64,000 nt of DNA from Myxococcales bacterium. Lineage in GTDB: Bacteria > Myxococcota_A > Polyangia > Polyangiales > Polyangiaceae. The DNA is taken from contig CAHJWM010000023.1 in assembly GCA_903642325.1 (NCBI GenBank), forward strand, positions 1 through 64,000, read 5' to 3'. Positions 14,639-27,025 of this stretch are shown piece after piece. The translations under genes and the position numbers were made by a program. How positions within the stretch are numbered: position 1 is the first letter of the stretch; every line of letters starts with the position of its first letter. The notes under the pieces are model-generated. The model did not search any database. It was not told the origin of the DNA and worked only from the letters and a program-made list of their open reading frames with translations.

Positions 14639-15535
14639 TCACGGCAAAATCTCGAAACTGTAATGCGCAAAATCCGCGCCGCCGCGGGCGTCGCGCAGGA
14701 CGACCCATAGATTGACCGTACCGGCCACGTCCGGCGCGCGAAAACCAGCCCTCGTAGACAGCGTTGGATCTTCTTCCGCCACGCCGCTCGACTCGGTCTC
14801 GAGCTGCCCCGCATCCGCATGCCACGAAACGCGCATCGCCTCTCGTTTGTTCACGATCGATTGCTGAGCGCGGTCGAAATAGCGGTACGACTCGGCGTCG
14901 GAAGCCGCCCAGCTTACCTGGAGCTCGACGCTGGCACCGCGCGGAATCTCGGCGAGCCCGATCGTGCGATCGTCGCGGCGTACCACTAGTGGTGCTAGGT
15001 GCGGGTTCTGGTTCGGCACGTAGGTCATACCAAACTCGGTCGCGATATCGGCGGACGCATCACCCAAATCGCATAGCGCGCGCTGCAAGTGAAAGGCAGG
15101 CGGCGCCCCCGCGAGGTCCAGCCGCAGCGGCTGGTAATATCCGCCCGTCACGTCGGGGTCGCGAGCGCGAAAGCCACCGGGTGCGGTATCGGGGCCGAAC
15201 CGAGAGCAGGCCTCGGACGGCATCGCGGTCTGAATCGTTGCCCCGACGCCAACCAACTCGAGCTCGGCGGCAAGGAGGCACGCGCTGCCGACCGCGTTGT
15301 CTTCCGTGACCGGCTTGGGCGCAGTGCAGAAGCTCCAGCTGGGCATCGGGCCATGAGCGGGTGCGCCAGGTACCGCGATCAGCGCGCTGAGAGTCAGAGG
15401 CGCTCCAGGCGCGGCCTCCGCGGGCTCGCTCTTTACGGCCAGGACGCGCGCGGCGTCGATCCGCGCGGCATCTTCGGAGAATTCGGGGGCGCACGCGCTC
15501 ACTAGCACCGCGCACAGCGTGAGTTGCCCGTTCAT
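14639..15535 (-). CDS. Lipoprotein, last of the envelope operon
   Basis: 298 residues. The signal ends at VSAC (Cys 15). The mature part opens with DAARVLAVKSEPAEAAPG, a motif often seen in Ig-like surface proteins, and has cysteines at CTAPKP and SACLL. A C-terminal Ig-like stretch (AGTVNLWVVLRDARGG) resembles cadherin/Ig-like beta sandwiches of myxobacterial lipoproteins. Its ATG overlaps the TonB-receptor stop by 4 bases (ATGA), so it is translationally coupled to it and may be a surface partner. Confidence 0.7.
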   Translation of the reverse strand: MNGQLTLCAVLVSACAPEFSEDAARIDAARVLAVKSEPAEAAPGAPLTLSALIAVPGAPAHGPMPSWSFCTAPKPVTEDNAVGSACLLAAELELVGVGATIQTAMPSEACSRFGPDTAPGGFRARDPDVTGGYYQPLRLDLAGAPPAFHLQRALCDLGDASADIATEFGMTYVPNQNPHLAPLVVRRDDRTIGLAEIPRGASVELQVSWAASDAESYRYFDRAQQSIVNKREAMRVSWHADAGQLETESSGVAEEDPTLSTRAGFRAPDVAGTVNLWVVLRDARGGADFAHYSFEILP

Positions 15536-17601
15536 AGCTCGAGCCGTACCCCCACGACGCCAACGAAGGGCAAGCCGCTGACCACGCCGCGATGATCATA
15601 TGTTTGATCGTAGCGATACTCTTCACCGTTGTGATGGTTCGTCACGTTCAAAAGCTCCAGGTAGGCCAAGAGCCGTGCGCGACGTCCGAGCCTGAAGCGG
15701 CGATCTACGCGTACGTCGAGCTGGTAGAAGCTCGGCAGACGAAGCGTATTCTGTGCTCCGAAGATCGGCTGGTACGCGTCGTTCGTTTCAGCGTACAGCG
15801 CGCCGACCACGGGCGTGCGCGGAGCGCCGCTCGCAAAACGGAAGCGAAGCCCCAAACCCCAGTCACCCCACGCCTGATCTGCGACTACCGTGAGCACCTG
15901 CGGTTCATCGTAGTCGAACAAACGCGCGCGGGAAGTTGGCGTAGGCCGCCGTTCGCTGCGCGACAGAGTGTACGCGAACGAGCCCGAGAAGCCGTGGATA
16001 AGCTTTTGTTGTAACAAGAATTGGGCGCCGTAGCTCTCGCCGTCGCCGGTGCCGACGAGCGCACTGGCGAGCTTCGGCGTGGGCGCGCTGTCCCGCACGT
16101 TCAGCCTGGACAGTGCGCGATAAAATCCGGTCACGCTGAGCAACAGTGAGCTCGTAAGCTCGACCGCTTCACCGACGCTCGCGTGCTCGGCACGCTCGGG
16201 CCCGAGCGTGGGGGTTCCGAACACGGCGCTGAGATCGGCGGCTTCCGGGGGCTGTGTATAAATGCCCGCGGCACCTAGTAGAACCGCGCGAGGCGATAGG
16301 CGGAGCCGGACGCTCAATCTAGGCTCGATCTCCGCAATTAGAGAGGACTGCTCGATCGCTGGCGTTTGACCGACGCGCGGCGTGCTGCGGCTCGCTTCCA
16401 AAAGATACATGTCCAAGCGGACGCTGGGCGTCAGCGTCAACGGCCCGAGCTCGCTGTCGAGCGTGAGGTAGGGCGCAGCGTTCAGCACCGTGGCCGACCA
16501 GGTGTCGGTGTTGGTATCCCCGCCGGGCGGTTGACCAAATACGCTCACGTCGCCCTCGCGCGCGGGGATTGTCAGAGAGCCTTGACGGCTGACATTCGCG
16601 TGCGAGCCAGCGGCATCGAGCCCGAGGCGCAAGGTGGCCCTCGAAAGCACGCGCGCGCGCTGCTCTGCACGCACGCCCCAACGCAGCGCCCGTTGCTCGA
16701 GCTCCGCCGTGTCAGCCCCGAAATGTGCAGCCACGTGCGATTCGTCTCGCCCCGCCCACGGCACGACGTCCACGCTCGAGCCGTCGTCGAAAGTCCGCCG
16801 GTACCGCATATAGATCCGTTCGAACGAGCGCGCATCGCTCGTAGAAAGGCGGCGAGCCGGGTCCCGATTGGGCACGGTGCGGCCGAGCTCGTCACCGGAC
16901 CCGAGCCACACCAGGTCGATCGATTCGCGCTCGCGCAGTGCTAATTGTAGCTTGGCCTGATAATCGCGATATCGGGGCACTGCGAAGAGCTCCCCGACGT
17001 CTGGAGCGCCGACCACGCGCAGGGTGCGATCCAAGAGGCCGTAGCGTGCCGCGAGCGCCAAGCGCAGCTTGTTCGAAAGAGGAGCGCTAACGAGCGCAGA
17101 CGCATCCAAGCTGCTCGCCTCGAGCGTTGCGTGCGGGCGATCGCGGGCTAGGTCGCGCGTCTCGAGGCGGATCATTCCGCCGATCGCGCGCCCGTAATCC
17201 GCGCCGAAGGCCCCGGGGGTTAGGGCGACGCTTCGCAGCAGGTTGCCATTGATGATTCCGCGCAGACCGCTCCCGTGAAAAAGCTGAGGGATCTCTACGC
17301 CGTCCACGTACACTCGGGTGTCTTCGGGCGCGGCACCCCAGAGCAAGACCTGATCGTGACCAAGGCCCGGCCGCGCCATACCCGGCGCGTTTTGCAATGC
17401 CTTTGTTGGGTCGTCTTCGGCGCCCGCTTGCGCTCGCGCTTGGTCGACCGATAGCTTGAGCTCGTTCGCATCGCGCCGCGGGCGAATGCCGCGCACGGCG
17501 ATTTCCATCTCCTTTGGCGTCGTCTGCGCCGACACGGGGCGTGCGCTCAGCGCGAGCCCAGCGGCAGCCAGCAGACCGCGCGCGAGCCTGACGGCAATCA
17601 C
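15532..17601 (-). CDS. TonB-dependent outer-membrane receptor
   Basis: 689 residues from GTG at 17601, which overlaps the upstream stop as GTGA and gives a sound signal (VIAVRLARGLLAAAGLALS...SAQ); the frame continues upstream without signal character. The plug follows (DDPTKALQNAPGM, RVYVDGVEIP, GLRGIINGNLLRSVAL, GADYGRAIGGMIRLE). The barrel carries long amphipathic strands and ends in an aromatic-terminated last strand (VGVVGVRLEL). It imports a substrate across the outer membrane using TonB energy; no tonB/exbBD gene is in the window. Its place in the operon with a porin and a binding lipoprotein is unusual. Confidence 0.88.
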   Translation of the reverse strand: MIAVRLARGLLAAAGLALSARPVSAQTTPKEMEIAVRGIRPRRDANELKLSVDQARAQAGAEDDPTKALQNAPGMARPGLGHDQVLLWGAAPEDTRVYVDGVEIPQLFHGSGLRGIINGNLLRSVALTPGAFGADYGRAIGGMIRLETRDLARDRPHATLEASSLDASALVSAPLSNKLRLALAARYGLLDRTLRVVGAPDVGELFAVPRYRDYQAKLQLALRERESIDLVWLGSGDELGRTVPNRDPARRLSTSDARSFERIYMRYRRTFDDGSSVDVVPWAGRDESHVAAHFGADTAELEQRALRWGVRAEQRARVLSRATLRLGLDAAGSHANVSRQGSLTIPAREGDVSVFGQPPGGDTNTDTWSATVLNAAPYLTLDSELGPLTLTPSVRLDMYLLEASRSTPRVGQTPAIEQSSLIAEIEPRLSVRLRLSPRAVLLGAAGIYTQPPEAADLSAVFGTPTLGPERAEHASVGEAVELTSSLLLSVTGFYRALSRLNVRDSAPTPKLASALVGTGDGESYGAQFLLQQKLIHGFSGSFAYTLSRSERRPTPTSRARLFDYDEPQVLTVVADQAWGDWGLGLRFRFASGAPRTPVVGALYAETNDAYQPIFGAQNTLRLPSFYQLDVRVDRRFRLGRRARLLAYLELLNVTNHHNGEEYRYDQTYDHRGVVSGLPFVGVVGVRLEL

Positions 17602-18485
17602 GGCACGTCGAATCCAAGCGCCAACACACCGGCACCGCGATCGTGCGGTCCCCAGGTGTCGCTGTCGAGCGCGATACCCGCCGCAGACGCTAGCGGCTCG
17701 TGGTCGAGCGTGACCGTCACGAGCCAGTGTGCATTCGGACGCCCGCACAATGAGGTGGTGTCGACCCGAACCAGGTACCGACCGCTAGGCGGCTCTTCAG
17801 CCCAGACCACGTCCTCTTGCCGCAAGCCGTCGGCCCTGCATTCGGCGTCAGAGTCGACGTCGAGGGTCCCGTAGCTCGAAGCCGGGGTGTTTTGGGCGAA
17901 GGGATCGCGCGAGCTCCGTGAGCCGTGGAAGATTTCGCTGCCAGCTGGATCCACGACGTGCAAATCCAGATCAGAGTCGACGTCCCAGCTCAGAGTGACG
18001 TTGAGCGCCCCTGGTGTTGCTCGTGACGGGGCGAAGGGCAAGGCGATCAGGGTCTGTCGCCGTGCCGCGCCGAAGTGCGCTGAGTCGTCAACCGCGCGAA
18101 CCTCGAGCGTGTACGAGCCCGGGGCTAGGTTTTGCGCAAACGCGGCAACCGCGCGGAAAGTGGGCAACTCTGGTGCTGATACGTCGGGCACACCGGCGGG
18201 CACGACCCAGTAGCCGTAGTCCCCGCTCAACGCGAGTGTCACCGCAGTTGCGCTGGCAGCCAAGCTACCGCGCACGGGCTTGTTCGAATACCCGGGCCAA
18301 ATAATGGTGGTGAGCAGATCCACGCTGGCAACCGCCGGGCCTGCGTGATCGCTGGGCGTTGCGCCGGCCACGAACTCGGCGCCCGCGATGCGCATGCGTG
18401 CGCCCAGCGCGGGGTCGTTGCTTGCCCCTGCCGAGCAGCCTGCGGCGTAAATCGCGCCAACACCCAAAAAAAACAGGCCGCGCAT
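17598..18485 (-). CDS. Lipoprotein with Asp-rich DLDLHVVDP domain
   Basis: 295 residues with a lipobox (YAAGC, Cys at 17). The central region has LSWDVDSDLDLHVVDPAG followed by GTLDVDSDAECRADG and a PPSGRYLVRVDT strand: the acidic beta-domain known from YfaP/DUF2135-like proteins. The Asp runs suggest calcium binding. It overlaps the porin gene by one base upstream and the receptor by GTGA downstream. Confidence 0.72.
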   Translation of the reverse strand: MRGLFFLGVGAIYAAGCSAGASNDPALGARMRIAGAEFVAGATPSDHAGPAVASVDLLTTIIWPGYSNKPVRGSLAASATAVTLALSGDYGYWVVPAGVPDVSAPELPTFRAVAAFAQNLAPGSYTLEVRAVDDSAHFGAARRQTLIALPFAPSRATPGALNVTLSWDVDSDLDLHVVDPAGSEIFHGSRSSRDPFAQNTPASSYGTLDVDSDAECRADGLRQEDVVWAEEPPSGRYLVRVDTTSLCGRPNAHWLVTVTLDHEPLASAAGIALDSDTWGPHDRGAGVLALGFDVP

Positions 18486-19834
18486 CAGAATGTCAATTGC
18501 CCGCGCACGGTCAGAGCATCATTCGCGAGGCGCGCAGGTGCGCCGCTCGAGTTGCGCCCGAGCGTGTTGTGATTGTGATCGTACTCGAGGGCCAACCGCG
18601 CATCGGCGTAACGAAGCATGGCCAAAAAAGCCAGCGTGCTGTAGCTGCGGTCGCGCGGCACCATCACCGCCGCTTGCTGCTCGCGGGCGTCTTGGTCCGG
18701 GTCGTATCGGTCATAGCGCACGCCCAGCAAGGCCCACGACGTGAGCTCCTGGGTCAGGCCCACATACCAACCTAGCTCGTGCAAATCGTGACCTGCGCCG
18801 ACCGGGTCTGCGCTTTCCAGGCCGCGATCCAGGTTACTGGCGCGCACCAGCTCCCCGCGCAGACTCAGCTCGAATCCGGGCGCAAAAGAGACCGCGAGCC
18901 GCGCGTCGGCCCCGAGCGCAAAGCGATGAAATTCCTGCGAGGGACGGGCAGACGATCCAGCAACCACCTGTATCTCGGTGGACTGAACGATGCCATCGCC
19001 GTTGTCGTCACGCCAAACGAGCTCGTCCTTGGTCGTCGGTGTTCCCTCATGGAAGCCATTGCCCGTGTCGGCCGAGATGCCCAACGAAAATTCGACGTTC
19101 TGGACCGGATTCGTTTGCACCCCGAGATGCCCGATGACTTCCTTTTTCTGATCGGGCGCCAGCGCCGGAAACACACGGTCGCCGATGGGATGACCGTTCA
19201 TGGCCGAGAGGGTCATCTCCAGAAACCGGTACTTGGCTCGGAAGCGCGCGCCCACGTCGTACTCGCCCGGGAAAAACGCGCGTGCCATCGTCGAGCGCTC
19301 GAGAAAAGGGCGCAGCGCGTCTGACTCGGGCACCTCGACGCCGAACGGGATTTTCATGATGCCCAGAGCGAGCTCGAAAAGCGGCCGACCGGGATCGGCC
19401 TTTTCCGGCCAATGAACGCCAATTTCTGCGTTCAGAGGGCGGACCTGGGCGCCGTTCGTGGTGTTCACGTCCACTTCGAGCGCCGCTCTCAAGAAGCGAT
19501 GTTCCGCATCGACGCGGAAGTGACCACGACGCAGCGTGAAGCGATCTTGGTTCAGGGGCGCGTTCGTTGCGTAATCAATCTCATTTCGCGACGCTTGGTT
19601 GTACAGAACCCAGTCCACCTGCACGTAGCCCGACAGGTGCAGCGATGGATGCTGAAGCGCGTCGATGGCGGATGCTTGACGTCCTAGCTCGGAGCGCAAC
19701 GCATCCATCTCGGCTCCGCCGACTACGGGCGGCGAGCGCGAAGGCCAGAGACTCGCTTCATCCGCCCGTGCTGGGTGCGACCAGGCGACACCTAGTAGGA
19801 GCACCCCGGCGAATGCGCCGAGCTGGGGGCTCAT
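18485..19834 (-). CDS. OprP/OprO-like porin
   Basis: 449 residues with a Sec signal (ending SHPARA). After a short coiled segment comes a barrel: LSGYVQVDWVLYN, FTLRRGHFRVDAEHRF, MKIPFGVEVPE, EYDVGARFRAKYRFLEM, and an aromatic last strand (TVRGQLTF). This is the pattern of phosphate-selective OprP/O porins. At about residue 268-279 there is an EF-hand-type loop (DDNGDGIVQSTE). The start overlaps the upstream stop by one base (TGATG), and its own stop does the same with the next gene, so it is co-translated with its neighbours. Confidence 0.8.
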   Translation of the reverse strand: MSPQLGAFAGVLLLGVAWSHPARADEASLWPSRSPPVVGGAEMDALRSELGRQASAIDALQHPSLHLSGYVQVDWVLYNQASRNEIDYATNAPLNQDRFTLRRGHFRVDAEHRFLRAALEVDVNTTNGAQVRPLNAEIGVHWPEKADPGRPLFELALGIMKIPFGVEVPESDALRPFLERSTMARAFFPGEYDVGARFRAKYRFLEMTLSAMNGHPIGDRVFPALAPDQKKEVIGHLGVQTNPVQNVEFSLGISADTGNGFHEGTPTTKDELVWRDDNGDGIVQSTEIQVVAGSSARPSQEFHRFALGADARLAVSFAPGFELSLRGELVRASNLDRGLESADPVGAGHDLHELGWYVGLTQELTSWALLGVRYDRYDPDQDAREQQAAVMVPRDRSYSTLAFLAMLRYADARLALEYDHNHNTLGRNSSGAPARLANDALTVRGQLTF

Positions 19835-21453
19835 CAGGGCAATGGCTCGGGATCGTCGTTCGGTAGCGCGACGGCCTTGGTGACGTGTTGAGCGTTGGTG
19901 CAGGCGTTGATGATCTCAGCGTTCGTAGTCGGCGGGCCGCTGAAGCAGCCCGGGCTAGCGCCCGCGGTGGACACGGCGTCCGGTTCACAAAACCCGTGAC
20001 TACACGTGCCGCCGGCGCAACCCGCGTTCGAGGTGCAAGCGGCGCAGCCTGCCGGCACACCGGTCGCGAGCGGTGTTTTGCTCAAATAATAGCAGGTGCA
20101 CGGGTCTGCGGGGCTGAAGGCGCTGAGCGGACCGCCGTCGGCGGCGCGGCTGACCTTCATGGCGCACTCCGGGATGAGACCGACTTTTATCACGTCCGAA
20201 AGTGCATCGAATGCCTCTGCTCCGACTGGCGGCACCGCCGGAGGTGCACCGCCCACGACCAGATCGACCAGGTATTTGACCGCCGAGTTGCGCGGCTTGT
20301 TCGAGCTGTCCACCGGAGCAATGTAAACGGTGGGGGACCACAGCGTGTAGTGCCCGTCGCGCACGTTTTGCTTGTCGAACGCCCCCGACGTGGAATCGGG
20401 ATAGTAGGCAGTTTTCTGATCGAACGCTTGAAAGGCGAGCGTTTGGATGCCCTTGCTTCGATTGCTGTCATAAACCTCCGCGCCCAAAATTCCGATCGTG
20501 GCTTTGGGCTGCGTCGAGGTGGAGACGGCCGTGACCACATCGCCGGACGCTGCCTCCTGGACGCCTTTCCACTTATTTGGCGGCACGTTGATGTTTTTTG
20601 CCGTCGCCACGAGGGTGCTCTTGGTTGACGGGCGAATGAACATGAACGTTTCGTTGTTCCAAGGGTTGTACGCGGGCGCGAGTGGGTTCTGCGCTCCGAA
20701 GCCGAATGCGTAATAAGCTTCTTCCGCCCAGATGGCCGTTTGATCGCTCGCTTTCGGTACGATGAACGTGTACGCCTGAATCGGGCCCTGAATCAGACCA
20801 AGGCTGGCCGGAGTTGCGCCTAGCCCGCAACTGTCCACGAACAACGCCGAAATGGCCAAGTCGAGTGACACGCCGCCGGGTCCGGTGGTGCATGTCGGCT
20901 CGATCATGGCCGGCGTCCAGTTCGGGTCTTCGACGGTGGAAGGGATATACTTCAACGTGCCGCTCTTCAATACGTTCGCGCCTGCGTACATGTCGCCCGT
21001 CAACGTGCAGGAGCCGGTCAAGAAGAACGCCAGCGTGATGTTCGCCGTATCGCGCAAATGGCGACCGATGTTCTTCAGGAGATTTTCCTGTGTGTCTCCC
21101 GACTCGATGTACAGCACCGTGCCGGGCAGCTTGCCGCACGTGCCCGTGTCCACCGGCAGCGTGACGGGCGCGCCTGCGGCGCCGGCCTGATCGTCCGTTT
21201 CGTTGACGCCTGCGGCGCCAGCGCTGTCTGCCGCCGCCGAGCCGCCGCCCGCGCCAGGCTTGCCAGAGGCGCCCGCCCTTCCACCGGGCTTCCCGCTGCT
21301 TCCGCTACTTCCGCTGCCTCCGCCGAAATCTGCTCCGACGGCGCCCGCCTCCGGGCTTGGTACGCCGTTGGAAGTCGTGGTGTCACTGTCACTGCAGCTC
21401 GCGGACAGAAGCGCGAACGCGAGCGGCGTGAATAGGACGAGTAAGCGTTTCAT
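19834..21453 (-). CDS. Periplasmic-binding-protein-like lipoprotein
   Basis: 539 residues from ATG at 21453 (MKRLLVLFTPLAFALLSASC); the frame continues upstream, but the lipobox start is here. A long Gly/Ser/Ala linker reaches about residue 105. The domain that follows (TVLYIESGDTQENLLKNIGRHL, then YNPWNNETFMFIRPSTKSTLVATAKNI, then GILGAEVYDSNRSKGIQTLAFQ) looks like a type II substrate-binding fold of the PstS/ModA kind. A Cys-rich tail (about 12 Cys) ends the protein. It is probably an outer-surface or periplasmic solute binder; the ligand is inferred from context only. Confidence 0.65.
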   Translation of the reverse strand: MKRLLVLFTPLAFALLSASCSDSDTTTSNGVPSPEAGAVGADFGGGSGSSGSSGKPGGRAGASGKPGAGGGSAAADSAGAAGVNETDDQAGAAGAPVTLPVDTGTCGKLPGTVLYIESGDTQENLLKNIGRHLRDTANITLAFFLTGSCTLTGDMYAGANVLKSGTLKYIPSTVEDPNWTPAMIEPTCTTGPGGVSLDLAISALFVDSCGLGATPASLGLIQGPIQAYTFIVPKASDQTAIWAEEAYYAFGFGAQNPLAPAYNPWNNETFMFIRPSTKSTLVATAKNINVPPNKWKGVQEAASGDVVTAVSTSTQPKATIGILGAEVYDSNRSKGIQTLAFQAFDQKTAYYPDSTSGAFDKQNVRDGHYTLWSPTVYIAPVDSSNKPRNSAVKYLVDLVVGGAPPAVPPVGAEAFDALSDVIKVGLIPECAMKVSRAADGGPLSAFSPADPCTCYYLSKTPLATGVPAGCAACTSNAGCAGGTCSHGFCEPDAVSTAGASPGCFSGPPTTNAEIINACTNAQHVTKAVALPNDDPEPLP

Positions 21454-21490
21454 CGTCAATGCTCCTGAGTGACTTTCTAAATTCGGAAAC

Positions 21491-22423
21491 TTAGGCCGCG
21501 CGCACTTGCGCAACACGCCGGCCACATTGTGAAACGTCATAACCGAGCGCTGACAGCTCGCGCCGGAAGGGCGCGGCAGTCATGCTCTCGAATAACCGCA
21601 CGATACTCGGGACTCGCAAATCCTCGCTCGCAACCACTACGTCGTAGCGCTCCTCGGCAAGCGGCACGAAACCAAGCCCTCGGCTCTGCGCGGCGTCTCG
21701 CGTGGCAATGCCAACATCGGCGACGCCGAGCGCAACGGCCTCCGCGACTTCGGCGTGTCCGGCGGCGTGAACGCATGCCCGAGTTGCGAACTCCAACGAC
21801 AATCTCGCTTTCGTGAGCTCTTGTTCCAATAAGCGACGCGCGCCGGAGCCCCGCTCGCGCGATGCCAGGCGCAAGCTTCGCTCGGCAAACGCCGAGACGG
21901 CTTTTATGCGCTTGGGGTTGCCGGGTGCAACGACGAGCCCCGCCTCCCAGCGTGCGAGCGTGACTATGATTAGCGAGCGCTTTGCCGCTAGGCGTTGTAC
22001 GTCGGGTAAATTCGCCTGGCCGGTCTTGGCGTCGACCAAGTGTACGCCTGCGAGCTGGGCCTGATTGCGCTTCAGCGCCCGGAGGGCGACCGTGCTCGAA
22101 CGTGTAAGCCAAAGAAAGCGCCCCGGCCCCGGCCGTGCGTTGAGACGCTCCGCCAAAAGCCCGAGCGCGGGCGCACAGCCCATGAGCACGACGCCAGCCG
22201 GGTCAGCGGAGACGGAAGAGTCGGAGCCGCCGAATACGTCTTCGACCGCGCAGCCGAAGGCGCGCGCCAAGCGCAGCGCGACGTCGACCGCCGGGACGGC
22301 CCGGCCGGTCTCGATGGCATGCACGCTTTGACGTGAAAGAGCCACGGCGTCCGCCAGTGCCGTTTGCGACCAGCCGCGCGCCCCGCGTAGGTCCCGCACC
22401 CGATTGCGCACGCCTTTGACCAT
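21491..22423 (-). CDS. XRE-type regulator with substrate-binding domain
   Basis: 310 residues. Residues about 5-60 are an HTH_3 domain (RDLRGARGWSQTALADAVALSRQSVHAIETG). After about residue 80 a PBP_like domain follows (VLMGCAPALGLLAERLN, HLVDAKTGQANLP, VAEAVALGVADVGIATRDAA, FVPLAEERYDVVVASEDL), as in regulators of molybdate/tungstate-type genes. It probably senses an anion or small ligand and controls the operon that follows 37 bases downstream. The palindrome at 22434-22450 lies just before its start, so autoregulation is likely. Confidence 0.85.
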   Translation of the reverse strand: MVKGVRNRVRDLRGARGWSQTALADAVALSRQSVHAIETGRAVPAVDVALRLARAFGCAVEDVFGGSDSSVSADPAGVVLMGCAPALGLLAERLNARPGPGRFLWLTRSSTVALRALKRNQAQLAGVHLVDAKTGQANLPDVQRLAAKRSLIIVTLARWEAGLVVAPGNPKRIKAVSAFAERSLRLASRERGSGARRLLEQELTKARLSLEFATRACVHAAGHAEVAEAVALGVADVGIATRDAAQSRGLGFVPLAEERYDVVVASEDLRVPSIVRLFESMTAAPFRRELSALGYDVSQCGRRVAQVRAA

Positions 22424-22433
22424 GAGAGGTGGT

Positions 22434-22450
22434 CTTTACATCACGTAAAG
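22434..22450. promoter_or_regulatory. Candidate operator palindrome
   Basis: Perfect inverted repeat ctttac-N5-gtaaag, 11 bases before the regulator start codon and between it and the end of the ModF-like gene. Spacing and symmetry suit a dimeric HTH protein. It is the only strong palindrome in this gap. Assignment to the XRE regulator is inference. Confidence 0.55.
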
Positions 22451-22540
22451 GATGCTTGTCATTCGAGAACGTGACAGGGGCGAATTTCCGTCGACATCAG
22501 AGCGGCCGTGATCGGGCTCGAGCCGCGCCGCTGCTACGCC

Positions 22541-24097
22541 TCAAACGACCGTCAACACCCAACCCTGAGCTCGATATTCGAACACTTGACGCGTACATGC
22601 GAGCTGCTCATCCGGGTCGTGCGTCACGTACAGCAACGTGGCGTCGGTATGCTGGCCAATGTAATCGGCGATCGTCAGCACCTCGCTCCGGTGACGCGCA
22701 TCGAGGCCGTGGCATGGCTCATCGAGGATCAGGAGCTCGGGCTGCTTGACCACGGCTCGTAAGATCAGCGCGACACGCTGCTCACCGTAAGACAGCTGGC
22801 TAAACGGTTCCGCGCGCTTGTGGGTCAAGCCCACGACGCCGAGCCAGCGCTCAGCCGCACTGATTTCCGAATAATTGGGCTCACGGTACAGACCAATCGA
22901 ATCGTGAAAACCAGACAGCACGGTTTCGATCAAGCTTGCATAACAGCGGTACGCATATTCTACGTGCAGCGCATAGGACACCTGCCCGAGCCTGGCTTTG
23001 ACCTGCCAGATCGATTCGCCCGAGCCGCGTTTCATGCCGCACACGGTCACATCGTTCGCGTACACTTGGGGGTTGTCGCCGTTGATGAGGTTGAGCAGTG
23101 TAGTTTTGCCGCAGCCATTGGGCCCGCGGACCAAAGTGTGCTCGCCGGTTCGAATGCTCAAGCTCAAATCGGAGAGGACGCGCCGCCCGCCGTAGCTCAC
23201 CACGACGTTGCGCAGCTCGATCAACGGTCGACCCGGCCCTTGGCCTGCGCGCTCTTCGCCCGCGACCGTCGCGGCCAGCGTTTCATTCAGGACCGCGGTT
23301 TCAGCCGCTCCGAGCTGCTTCAGCTCGGAGGGGATGCCGCGAGCTTCGAAGTCTTTGCGCGTGCCCGCAAACGCCACGCCGCGATCCACGATGTGAAGTA
23401 CATGAGTCGTGGCTTGCGGGACGTGCTCGTAGCGGTCGGTGATCACCAGCACGTTCGACGGCCGTGGCCCCAAAGCCTCACCGGAGGGCTGCACGGACTC
23501 GGCTACCAGGCGCTCGATCTCCTCACGCAAGACGACGCGCGTCGCCGCGTCCAACCCTTCATAGGGCTCATCGAAGATCAGGAGCGTCGGCTCACGGAGT
23601 AGCTCGCGGCACAGGAGTACCTTACGAATCTCGCCGGTAGATAGATATTTGACGCCTCGCCCCAGCAGGGGCCCGATGCCCAAGCGCCGCACTAACTGCT
23701 CTAGCCGCGCAGGCGCCGTAATAGGCGGCATGGCGGCGCCGCGCTTGCGACGCAAAATGAAATCCAATGCCGCGGTGCCGGGATCGACGCCGCCATCCAT
23801 GAACTCGCCATCGTCGTGGTAGCGCTCGTCGAACACGATTTCCCGCTGCCGCTCGAACGAAATCAACGCCACGGCGTCCGCGTCTGGCCGCTCGCTCCAC
23901 TGGTTGGTCTCGGGGCTGCGCGAGGTGACCGGTAAGCCACCAGCCAAGGCCTGCGCAAGCGCGCTTTTGCCGCTGCCATTGGCCCCCGTGATGACCCAAG
24001 CTTGGAATGGCTCGACGACCCAGCTAAAGTGGCGAAAAATGGGCGCGTCCGCAGCGCCGATCGCGGCGTCGCGGAAGCAAATCCGGAGCGTGCTCAT
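22541..24097 (-). CDS. modF: ModF-like dual-ATPase ABC protein
   Basis: 518 residues from ATG at 24097. It carries two ATP-binding domains: Walker [10 protein letters not shown] with signature LSTGE and Walker B LLIFDEP; then [16 protein letters not shown] and LLILDEP. The first domain has the YLSTGEIRK motif typical of ModF/PhrA. No membrane segment is present. ModF is encoded beside modE in E. coli and is linked to molybdate response, but its exact role is unclear. It lies 117 bases upstream of the regulator on the same strand and divergent from ilvC. Confidence 0.82.
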
Positions 24098-24115
24098 GGG
24101 TTTTCTTGGCTCATG

Positions 24116-24141
24116 TTGACAGGTGTCCATTTGCGTACAAT
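24116..24141 (+). promoter_or_regulatory. Possible promoter of ilvC
   Basis: A perfect TTGACA (24116-24121) is followed after 14 bases by TACAAT (24136-24141), 42 bases before the ilvC start. The hexamers are good but the spacer is short for a sigma-70 promoter, so only one of them may be in use. Confidence 0.3.
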
Positions 24142-25653: not shown

Positions 25654-25783
25654 AGTATAAGTTCTGACACTTTAGCCAGGTCCGCGTCCGGAATCGGACG
25701 GCAGCACTGTCGTGCAAGGTGGGACTTCTTTCGCGCGGTGCCGCGCAATTCGAGCGCGTTTGCGGTTGCCCGGACACGGAGCA

Positions 25784-27025
25784 ATGATGACCAAGCGAAG
25801 CTGGGCGCTCACGTTGATGGGTTTGGCCTTGGGCACCGGAGCTTGCAGCAGCGATGCCGCCCCGACGCCTTTGTCCATAAGTAGCGCGGGCGCCGAGACC
25901 GGCGGCCGTGCGGCCAGCGGGGGCTCGTTGGGTAACGGCGGGGCGAGCAGCGCGAGCGTTGCTGGGTCCGCAGGCATGGATGTAAGTGATGGAGGAGGTG
26001 TCCCCAACGCAGCGGGCGGCACGTCGGGCATCGGTCCCGGCGGCTCCTCCGGCAGCGCGGGTGTGCCGGCGGGAGGAGGAGGAGGAGGAGGAGGAGGAGG
26101 AAGAGGAGTCGGAGGCAGCGGCGGCGGGAGCACGACAGCTCTTCCGACCGGCTCATCCACCGGCTGCAAAGTGCTTCCGCCCGCGAGTGACTCTGCGACC
26201 GGCTTCATCAAGCACGATGTCGAAGTCACCGAAGTTATGGATTCAGCCGTGTTGGCCGCAAACGCGGTGCCTGCCGACAAGACCTACAATTGGCAACACC
26301 GTAATTACTTCGTCCGACTGCCGAAGAATTACGACAATAAAAAACCGTACCTTCTGAGCATTGGCGGCAGCGGCTGCGGTGGCTCTGAAACCGTCGGCTC
26401 CGAGGGCGGTTACGCTCTGCTCGGCGGCGATCAAACGCAAGAAGTGCAGGTGGCTTTGAGCTACGTCACTGCAACCAGCGCATGCTTCACCGATGATTAC
26501 GTGAACTCGCCCGATTTGCAGTACTTCGACGCGATGTTGGCGGATGTGGAAGCGCACTACTGCATCGATAAGTCGAAGGTGTTCGTACACGGTTACAGCA
26601 GCGGCGCGTGGGAGACCTACCTGCTTGGTTGCGCCCGAGCCGGTATAGTCCGCGGCATCTTCACGTCTCAGGGCGGCGAGCGTTTGAAGCGACCGGCTTG
26701 CACTGGACCTATCGCCGCGCTGCTGAGTGCGGGGGCGGACGCAAGCAATGACAATCCGATTGGGCCGCTCGACCCGAATTCGAGCACGGCGAAGTCCCTG
26801 GACAGCCTGGGCTCCGCGGTCGCCCGCGACGAGATTCTAAAGCGCAACGGCTGCACCAGTACCATGACCAAAACCTGGTCGGGTTCGGCCGCTTGCCAGC
26901 AGTACGTCGATTGTCCGAGCGCATACCCAGTCATCTGGTGTCCGCTCAACGGTGGCCACGACTACGCGAGCTCCTTAGCGGGGCCCGCAGAGGTTCTGTT
27001 CCAAAGCCTGCTTCCTGGCGGATGA
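25784..27025 (+). CDS. PHB-depolymerase-type esterase lipoprotein
   Basis: 413 residues from ATG at 25784. The signal ends in GTGAC (lipobox), followed by a very Gly/Ser-rich linker with ten Gly in a row. The catalytic domain starts at about residue 125: RNYFVRLPKNYDNKKPYLLS (LpqC/PHB-depolymerase style), nucleophile GYSSG, and a late His in NGGHDYASSL. It likely acts on an ester outside the cell (polyester, feruloyl or acetyl). A paralogue lies convergently downstream. Confidence 0.82.
   Translation: MMTKRSWALTLMGLALGTGACSSDAAPTPLSISSAGAETGGRAASGGSLGNGGASSASVAGSAGMDVSDGGGVPNAAGGTSGIGPGGSSGSAGVPAGGGGGGGGGGRGVGGSGGGSTTALPTGSSTGCKVLPPASDSATGFIKHDVEVTEVMDSAVLAANAVPADKTYNWQHRNYFVRLPKNYDNKKPYLLSIGGSGCGGSETVGSEGGYALLGGDQTQEVQVALSYVTATSACFTDDYVNSPDLQYFDAMLADVEAHYCIDKSKVFVHGYSSGAWETYLLGCARAGIVRGIFTSQGGERLKRPACTGPIAALLSAGADASNDNPIGPLDPNSSTAKSLDSLGSAVARDEILKRNGCTSTMTKTWSGSAACQQYVDCPSAYPVIWCPLNGGHDYASSLAGPAEVLFQSLLPGG
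26072..26101. repeat. (GGA)10 microsatellite in coding sequence
   Basis: Ten uninterrupted gga units in frame encode ten glycines of the esterase linker. Slippage by whole units changes linker length; other slips would inactivate the gene, so it could be a site of phase variation. Confidence 0.95.

Follow-up and report, generated by a model that had tools for sequence, protein, structure and literature searches.

The window analysed here, a 64,000-nucleotide stretch of a Polyangiaceae genome (Myxococcota), contains a five-gene operon that we interpret as a molybdate/tungstate-responsive system for uptake of an oxyanion across the outer membrane, a reading to which we assign a probability of roughly 0.7. 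The unit encodes, in order, a PstS-like lipoprotein, an OprP/O-related porin, an Asp-rich lipoprotein (lipoB), a TonB receptor, and a further lipoprotein (lipoC), with an XRE-family regulator that carries a PBP_like domain upstream (Table 1). All five genes lie on the minus strand, and successive genes overlap by 1, 1, 4, and 4 bases, as the initial annotation of this DNA had described. The receptor starts at GTG 17601 and shares the four bases GTGA with the Asp-rich lipoprotein gene; the four-base overlap between receptor and terminal lipoprotein is ATGA. The most likely start of the binding lipoprotein is 21453, which leaves a 37-base gap after the regulator. An upstream ATG that would make these two genes overlap was rejected; the later start has its own ribosome site.

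Table 1. Coordinates of the window operon, its regulator and promoter-like element, and the adjacent ATPase gene.
Feature	Position	Strand	Remarks
Conserved promoter/operator-like element CTTTACGTGATGTAAAG	22434..22450	-	starts 27 bases before the regulator ATG
XRE-family regulator with PBP_like (PF12727) ligand domain	21491..22423	-	predicted molybdate/tungstate sensor
PstS-like binding lipoprotein	19834..21453	-	lipobox, Gly/Ser linker, predicted PstS-fold core, Cys-rich segment, C-terminal tail
Tail (CFSGPPTTNAEIINACT...) fused to the binding lipoprotein	19837..19950	-	aligns to separate ORFs in relatives
OprP/O-related outer-membrane porin	18485..19834	-	homologous to a porin that passes PF07396; aligns with porins of relatives' units
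Asp-rich lipoprotein (lipoB)	17598..18485	-	all-beta model
TonB-dependent receptor	15532..17601	-	plug domain; without the N-terminal TonB_C of extended-form relatives
Terminal lipoprotein (lipoC)	14639..15535	-	lipobox LVSAC; conserved last gene of the unit
ModF-like tandem ABC ATPase	22541..24130	-	accessory neighbour, not a conserved part

The initial annotation had made its proposal depend on the five genes being conserved together elsewhere. Dozens of Myxococcota loci have them in this same order, among them loci of Minicystis rosea, Polyangium, and Nannocystis (tblastn on relatives' neighbourhoods and marker tables that covered loci L036–L117 and L142–L221), and a PF12727 domain was found in no other gene of the 5.8-Mb genome than the window regulator; the five-gene grouping is therefore not a product of chance. 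Within the order, the binding-protein profile has hits in 74 of 184 genomes; in the sample from the whole phylum, it has hits in 31 of 284. Two forms of the unit occur. An extended form has ExbB, ExbD, and TonB genes between the Asp-rich lipoprotein and the receptor, and a compact form, to which the window belongs, is without them. In a tree of the five concatenated proteins, extended units stand apart from a clade made up of most compact units and all units with a linked PBP_like regulator. Such a regulator lies within 2 kb of 13 of the 45 compact units and of 0 of the 33 extended units (duplicates removed; Fisher p 4e-4, a value that is indicative only because the loci share descent). Among cultured relatives, Minicystis rosea DSM 24000 (L144) and Polyangium fumosum DSM 14668 (L188) have regulator-linked units. 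The fetched stretch holds no informative neighbour for 26 of the 45 compact units. Both forms are present in the window's own genome, where an extended copy with PstS-type loops (L053, contig C22) accompanies the compact window unit. A rule that equates the compact form with molybdate and the extended form with phosphate was rejected, since sulfate-linked units are of the extended form and some compact units have PhoB/PhoR-like neighbours.

The regulator is tied to molybdate genes both by its class and by its promoter region. The XRE protein with a substrate-binding domain that had been noted ahead of the five genes is borne out by profile matches to HTH_3, HTH_31, and PF12727 (E 3.4e-50), which is the architecture of XRE + PBP_like molybdate-type one-component regulators. 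Orthologues in this class are linked to modABC: in at least 10 of the 19 stretches fetched around other PF12727 genes, a regulator without the five-gene unit lies immediately before or beside ModABC-type genes. The element CTTTAC-N5-GTAAAG recurs identically at exactly the same distance ahead of the regulator in L162, which has regulator and unit, and in exactly the same place in L130, which has regulator and modABC. Eight more loci (L123–L129 and L175) have 9–11 of 12 element matches at exactly -27; about 2% of random 152-base stretches reach 9 matches at any position. The copy before the window regulator, CTTTACGTGATGTAAAG, is the sole exact one in the whole genome. Conservation of the element with the regulator points to a putative operator or part of a promoter. 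Other observations count against a molybdate role: the genome's own ModABC genes (C1:121622-122949) are unlinked to the window unit, no CTTTAC-N5-GTAAAG-type element occurs in their neighbourhood, and several PBP_like-linked units have no mod gene nearby.

Molybdate transport genes adjoin several relatives of the window unit. In L142 (= L072), the regulator, binding protein, porin, lipoprotein, receptor, lipoprotein, ModA, ModB, and ModC follow each other in one direction (Mod gene matches TIGR01256 1.7e-45 and TIGR02141 3.9e-60), and in L159 the regulator, ModA, ModB, and a ModC-like ATPase precede the five genes. ModA-B-C and an HTH17-PBP regulator are divergent from the unit in L040, ModA and a two-component system stand beside it in L149, and a divergent MOT1 molybdate transporter (PF16983 3.7e-53) flanks it in L143 (= L073). 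The rest of the unit is absent from L156 (= L038:10267-13324), where a window-type binding protein comes first, then an amino-acid-kinase-fold protein that may resemble molybdenum storage proteins, then ModA-ModB-ModC. The HTH17-PBP regulator gene in L040 (L040:6812-7768) has an in-frame stop between its two domains, due to mutation or sequencing error. The Mod-linked units, the MOT1 linkage, the regulator orthologues that head modABC, and conservation of the unit all favour the metal-oxyanion (molybdate/tungstate-like) uptake that had been guessed from the window sequence. The main clue for that guess was a ModF-like ATPase just upstream, which has not kept its importance. The gene is present, 117 bases upstream of the regulator, and its best match is ModF (NF008186), but at 353.6 bits it falls under the curated cut-off of 459 and can be called ModF-like only. 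No comparable gene lies beside relatives' units, and ModF was rejected as a conserved partner for this reason; the gene is specific to the window genome.

The binding lipoprotein combines a predicted PstS fold with altered anion contacts. An AF2 model of its core (pLDDT 87.4) has PstS 4lat as best match (VIA Z 24.8, 2.4 Å, 253 residues aligned), compared with a Z of about 15.8 for ModA, and would place the protein in the PstS fold. PDB sequence searches with the protein and its alignment gave no matches, so that the fold emerged from the model only, and the protein fails the PstS family model TIGR02136 (14.2 bits against a cut-off of 206.6). Its anion-loop residues are GDTQ / GSCT / ISAL / RPSTKST; the Asp56-type acceptor and R-x-x-x-S-G-T contacts of PstS are absent, and the protein is not filed as a phosphate-binding PstS. 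In E. coli PstS, Asp56 serves as acceptor for the proton of phosphate and keeps out dianions that are fully ionised. Its putative equivalent in the aligned loops was placed by sequence alignment, not coordinates, with an E. coli PstS sequence as ruler that was checked at printed positions only. Aligned in this way, Pst-linked copies keep GSTA, GSC, SDV (the Asp56 position), and RxxxSGT. In sulfate-linked copies the loops read GGSA, GAC, and RxxTSAA and the Asp is missing; in window-type copies they read GDTQ, GSCT, ISAL or similar without the Asp, and, in most, RxxTK(S/G)T. Among units with a readable loop, the Asp is absent from all that are linked to Mod genes, Cys genes, or a PBP_like regulator, and Pst-linked units keep it. 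Because Asp56 excludes fully ionised dianions, its loss in the sulfate- and molybdate-linked groups fits their genomic contexts, and in the window it adds support to metal-oxyanion uptake. The window loops are of the molybdate-linked type; molybdate and tungstate are indistinguishable here. A further loop type (GGTG or GATG, LDV or TDV in loop 3, and SGT) occurs in the binding proteins of L113 and L115, with an ABC transporter near L115.

The binding lipoprotein also carries a tail that has an independent existence in relatives. Of 90 loci, 70 have a gene for a short lipoprotein, which ends in C-x-x-x-P-x-T-H-x-E-I-I-N-A-C-T or a similar motif, between those for the binding protein and the porin. 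The binding proteins of the window, L142, and L143 carry this sequence as a C-terminal fusion, and alignment matches the window tail to free-standing ORFs in L037 and L043. Such fusion suggests that tail and binding protein act together, and the tail probably serves as a tether.

Phosphate scavenging, in which the PstS-like lipoprotein and OprP/O-like porin import phosphate and the regulator controls the unit for another reason, is an unlikely explanation of the window operon. It draws on PstS as the closest fold, on extended homologues that adjoin pstSCAB/phoBR, and on PhoB/PhoR-like genes that neighbour some compact units. In L043/L187, phoB-phoR-pstB-phoU-pstS-pstC-pstA precede an extended unit (L043:865-18252), and in L204 a pstC match well above cut-off, with pstB, pstS, and phoU matches, lies beside a unit with ExbB-ExbD-TonB; these loci constitute a predicted TonB-linked phosphate branch. 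Pst-linked copies keep both the Asp and the S139-G140 contact positions, whereas window-type proteins have no Asp56 equivalent and changed residues at those positions (RPSTKST). The regulator class is tied to modABC, and the extended L053 copy already supplies the same genome with PstS-type loops. A PhoB/PhoR-like two-component system accompanies 5 of the 45 compact units (L039, L079, L096, L153, and L149), which was counted against the molybdate reading; L149 also has ModA. PhoB-like regulators were rejected as proof of phosphate because their family scores are below cut-off even within a pst operon and because L149 pairs one with ModA. The binding proteins of L039, L079, L096, and L153 are without the phosphate-type Asp.

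The outer-membrane components have uneven family assignments. The porin had been called OprP/O-like, which is not detectable on the window protein itself (no PF07396 match at E 0.1 in a profile search) and is upheld through the homologous L053 porin, which passes PF07396 with 22.6 bits against a cut-off of 20.9. The receptor has the plug domain of TonB-dependent transporters (PF07715, E 1.2e-7, 32.7 bits, above the cut-off of 23.9); its barrel has a partial match to PF25183 (27.5 bits, below the cut-off of 30), and a relative passes PF00593. A TonB_C domain is matched by 31 of the 33 extended-form receptors and by 15 of the 47 compact-form ones. In L053 (L053:15595-18258) and other extended units, the receptor has its own N-terminal TonB_C together with a carboxypeptidase-regulatory-like domain. 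LipoB has an all-beta AF2 model (pLDDT 92.6) and a conserved W-D-x-x-x-D-L-D-L-H-V motif in alignment, with only weak beta-sandwich matches to Ig/FN3-type folds in a Foldseek structure search; lipoC has no family match in profile searches.

TonB receptors commonly take up chelates, and a unit that has both a receptor and a separate porin for small anions could divide two jobs between them. The window receptor might accordingly import a molybdenum or tungsten chelate (a metallophore complex), with the binding protein capturing the released anion or the chelate itself. We consider this quite improbable, as the genes recognised in the window, and those noted beside the Mod-linked relatives that were read, include none for chelator synthesis, and the phosphate and sulfate branches have the same components even though neither anion requires a chelator. 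The sulfate branch is predicted from L098, where sulfate transporter genes (a sulfate-binding protein with 447 bits to TIGR00971; CysT, CysW, and CysA, each over its cut-off), a sigma-54-type activator gene, and an extended unit follow in order (L098:3430-18267), and from L052 and L059, where a sulfate transporter and a sigma-54-type activator again adjoin an extended unit. That branch (sbp-cysTWA) shows that the unit changes ligand, and an Asp-less pocket suits any fully ionised dianion, but it is very unlikely that the window serves sulfate, selenate, chromate, vanadate, or arsenate, with mod links reflecting the same anion moving through ModABC-like transporters, given sulfate-linked loops (GGSA / GAC.. 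/ RxxTSAA) unlike the window's GDTQ / GSCT / RxxTKST, ModA matches above cut-off, and the MOT1 linkage.

Under the preferred molybdate/tungstate reading, the XRE-PBP regulator would sense cytoplasmic molybdate or tungstate and control its own operon from the CTTTAC-N5-GTAAAG element, so that scarcity of the anion would lead to production of an outer-membrane assembly. The PstS-derived lipoprotein, having lost the phosphate-specific Asp, would capture the dianion, and its tail would tie it to the complex. The anion may then enter through the TonB-dependent receptor and/or the OprP-like porin, aided by the two further lipoproteins. TonB-ExbB-ExbD could be supplied in trans from elsewhere in the cell, for example from the extended unit L053 in the same genome, and the separate, unlinked ModABC would carry the anion across the inner membrane.

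The initial annotation knew of no described system with this layout, and a search of open-licence literature likewise found no description of a regulator with binding lipoprotein, porin, lipoprotein, TonB receptor, and lipoprotein. OprP/O are stand-alone passive channels; the window porin is related to them through a relative's PF07396 match and differs in that its gene is coupled to a TonB receptor and binding lipoprotein. With PstS/PstSCAB the window shares the predicted binding-protein fold, and its extended relatives adjoin pst genes, but the window protein, a lipoprotein, has a linker and a tail, is without the phosphate-specific Asp, and lacks a dedicated permease. SusCD-type pairs may be analogous in pairing a TonB receptor with binding lipoproteins; here the receptor would be paired with a PstS-fold anion binder in place of SusD, the unit has an additional porin, and inorganic cargo is predicted. 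The Pseudomonas aeruginosa H2-T6SS-ModA-IcmP system takes up molybdate via T6SS-secreted ModA, an extracellular molybdate-binding protein that hands its load to an outer-membrane protein (reviewed in PMC8602904); unlike the window, it includes neither an operon of porin, TonB receptor, and lipoprotein genes nor a PBP_like regulator. Caulobacter ElpS (CC0170) is a secreted lipoprotein made under phosphate starvation that co-occurs with the TonB-dependent receptor CC0171 and has a suggested role in phosphate uptake (PMC2996285). Compared by description only, ElpS/CC0171 differs from the window in its linkage to a type II secretion cluster and in having no porin or Mod genes described.

It is an even call whether these units form a hitherto undescribed family of TonB-linked outer-membrane importers of inorganic oxyanions, in which one conserved receptor-porin-lipoprotein chassis is adapted to phosphate, sulfate, or molybdate/tungstate through changes in the anion loops of the PstS-derived binding protein and the window is a dedicated molybdate/tungstate version. 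Molybdate, sulfate, and phosphate are usually assumed to diffuse across the outer membrane through porins. A dedicated and possibly energised system for each anion on a common chassis would, if true, change that view for soil and peat Myxococcota, and the units would form a natural series in which the change from phosphate to fully ionised dianions goes along with the disappearance of one acidic residue. Elsewhere in the window, opposite strands encode, close together, two secreted esterase-like proteins that are related to each other and have long Gly/Ser linkers (25712-27025 and 28965-27679).
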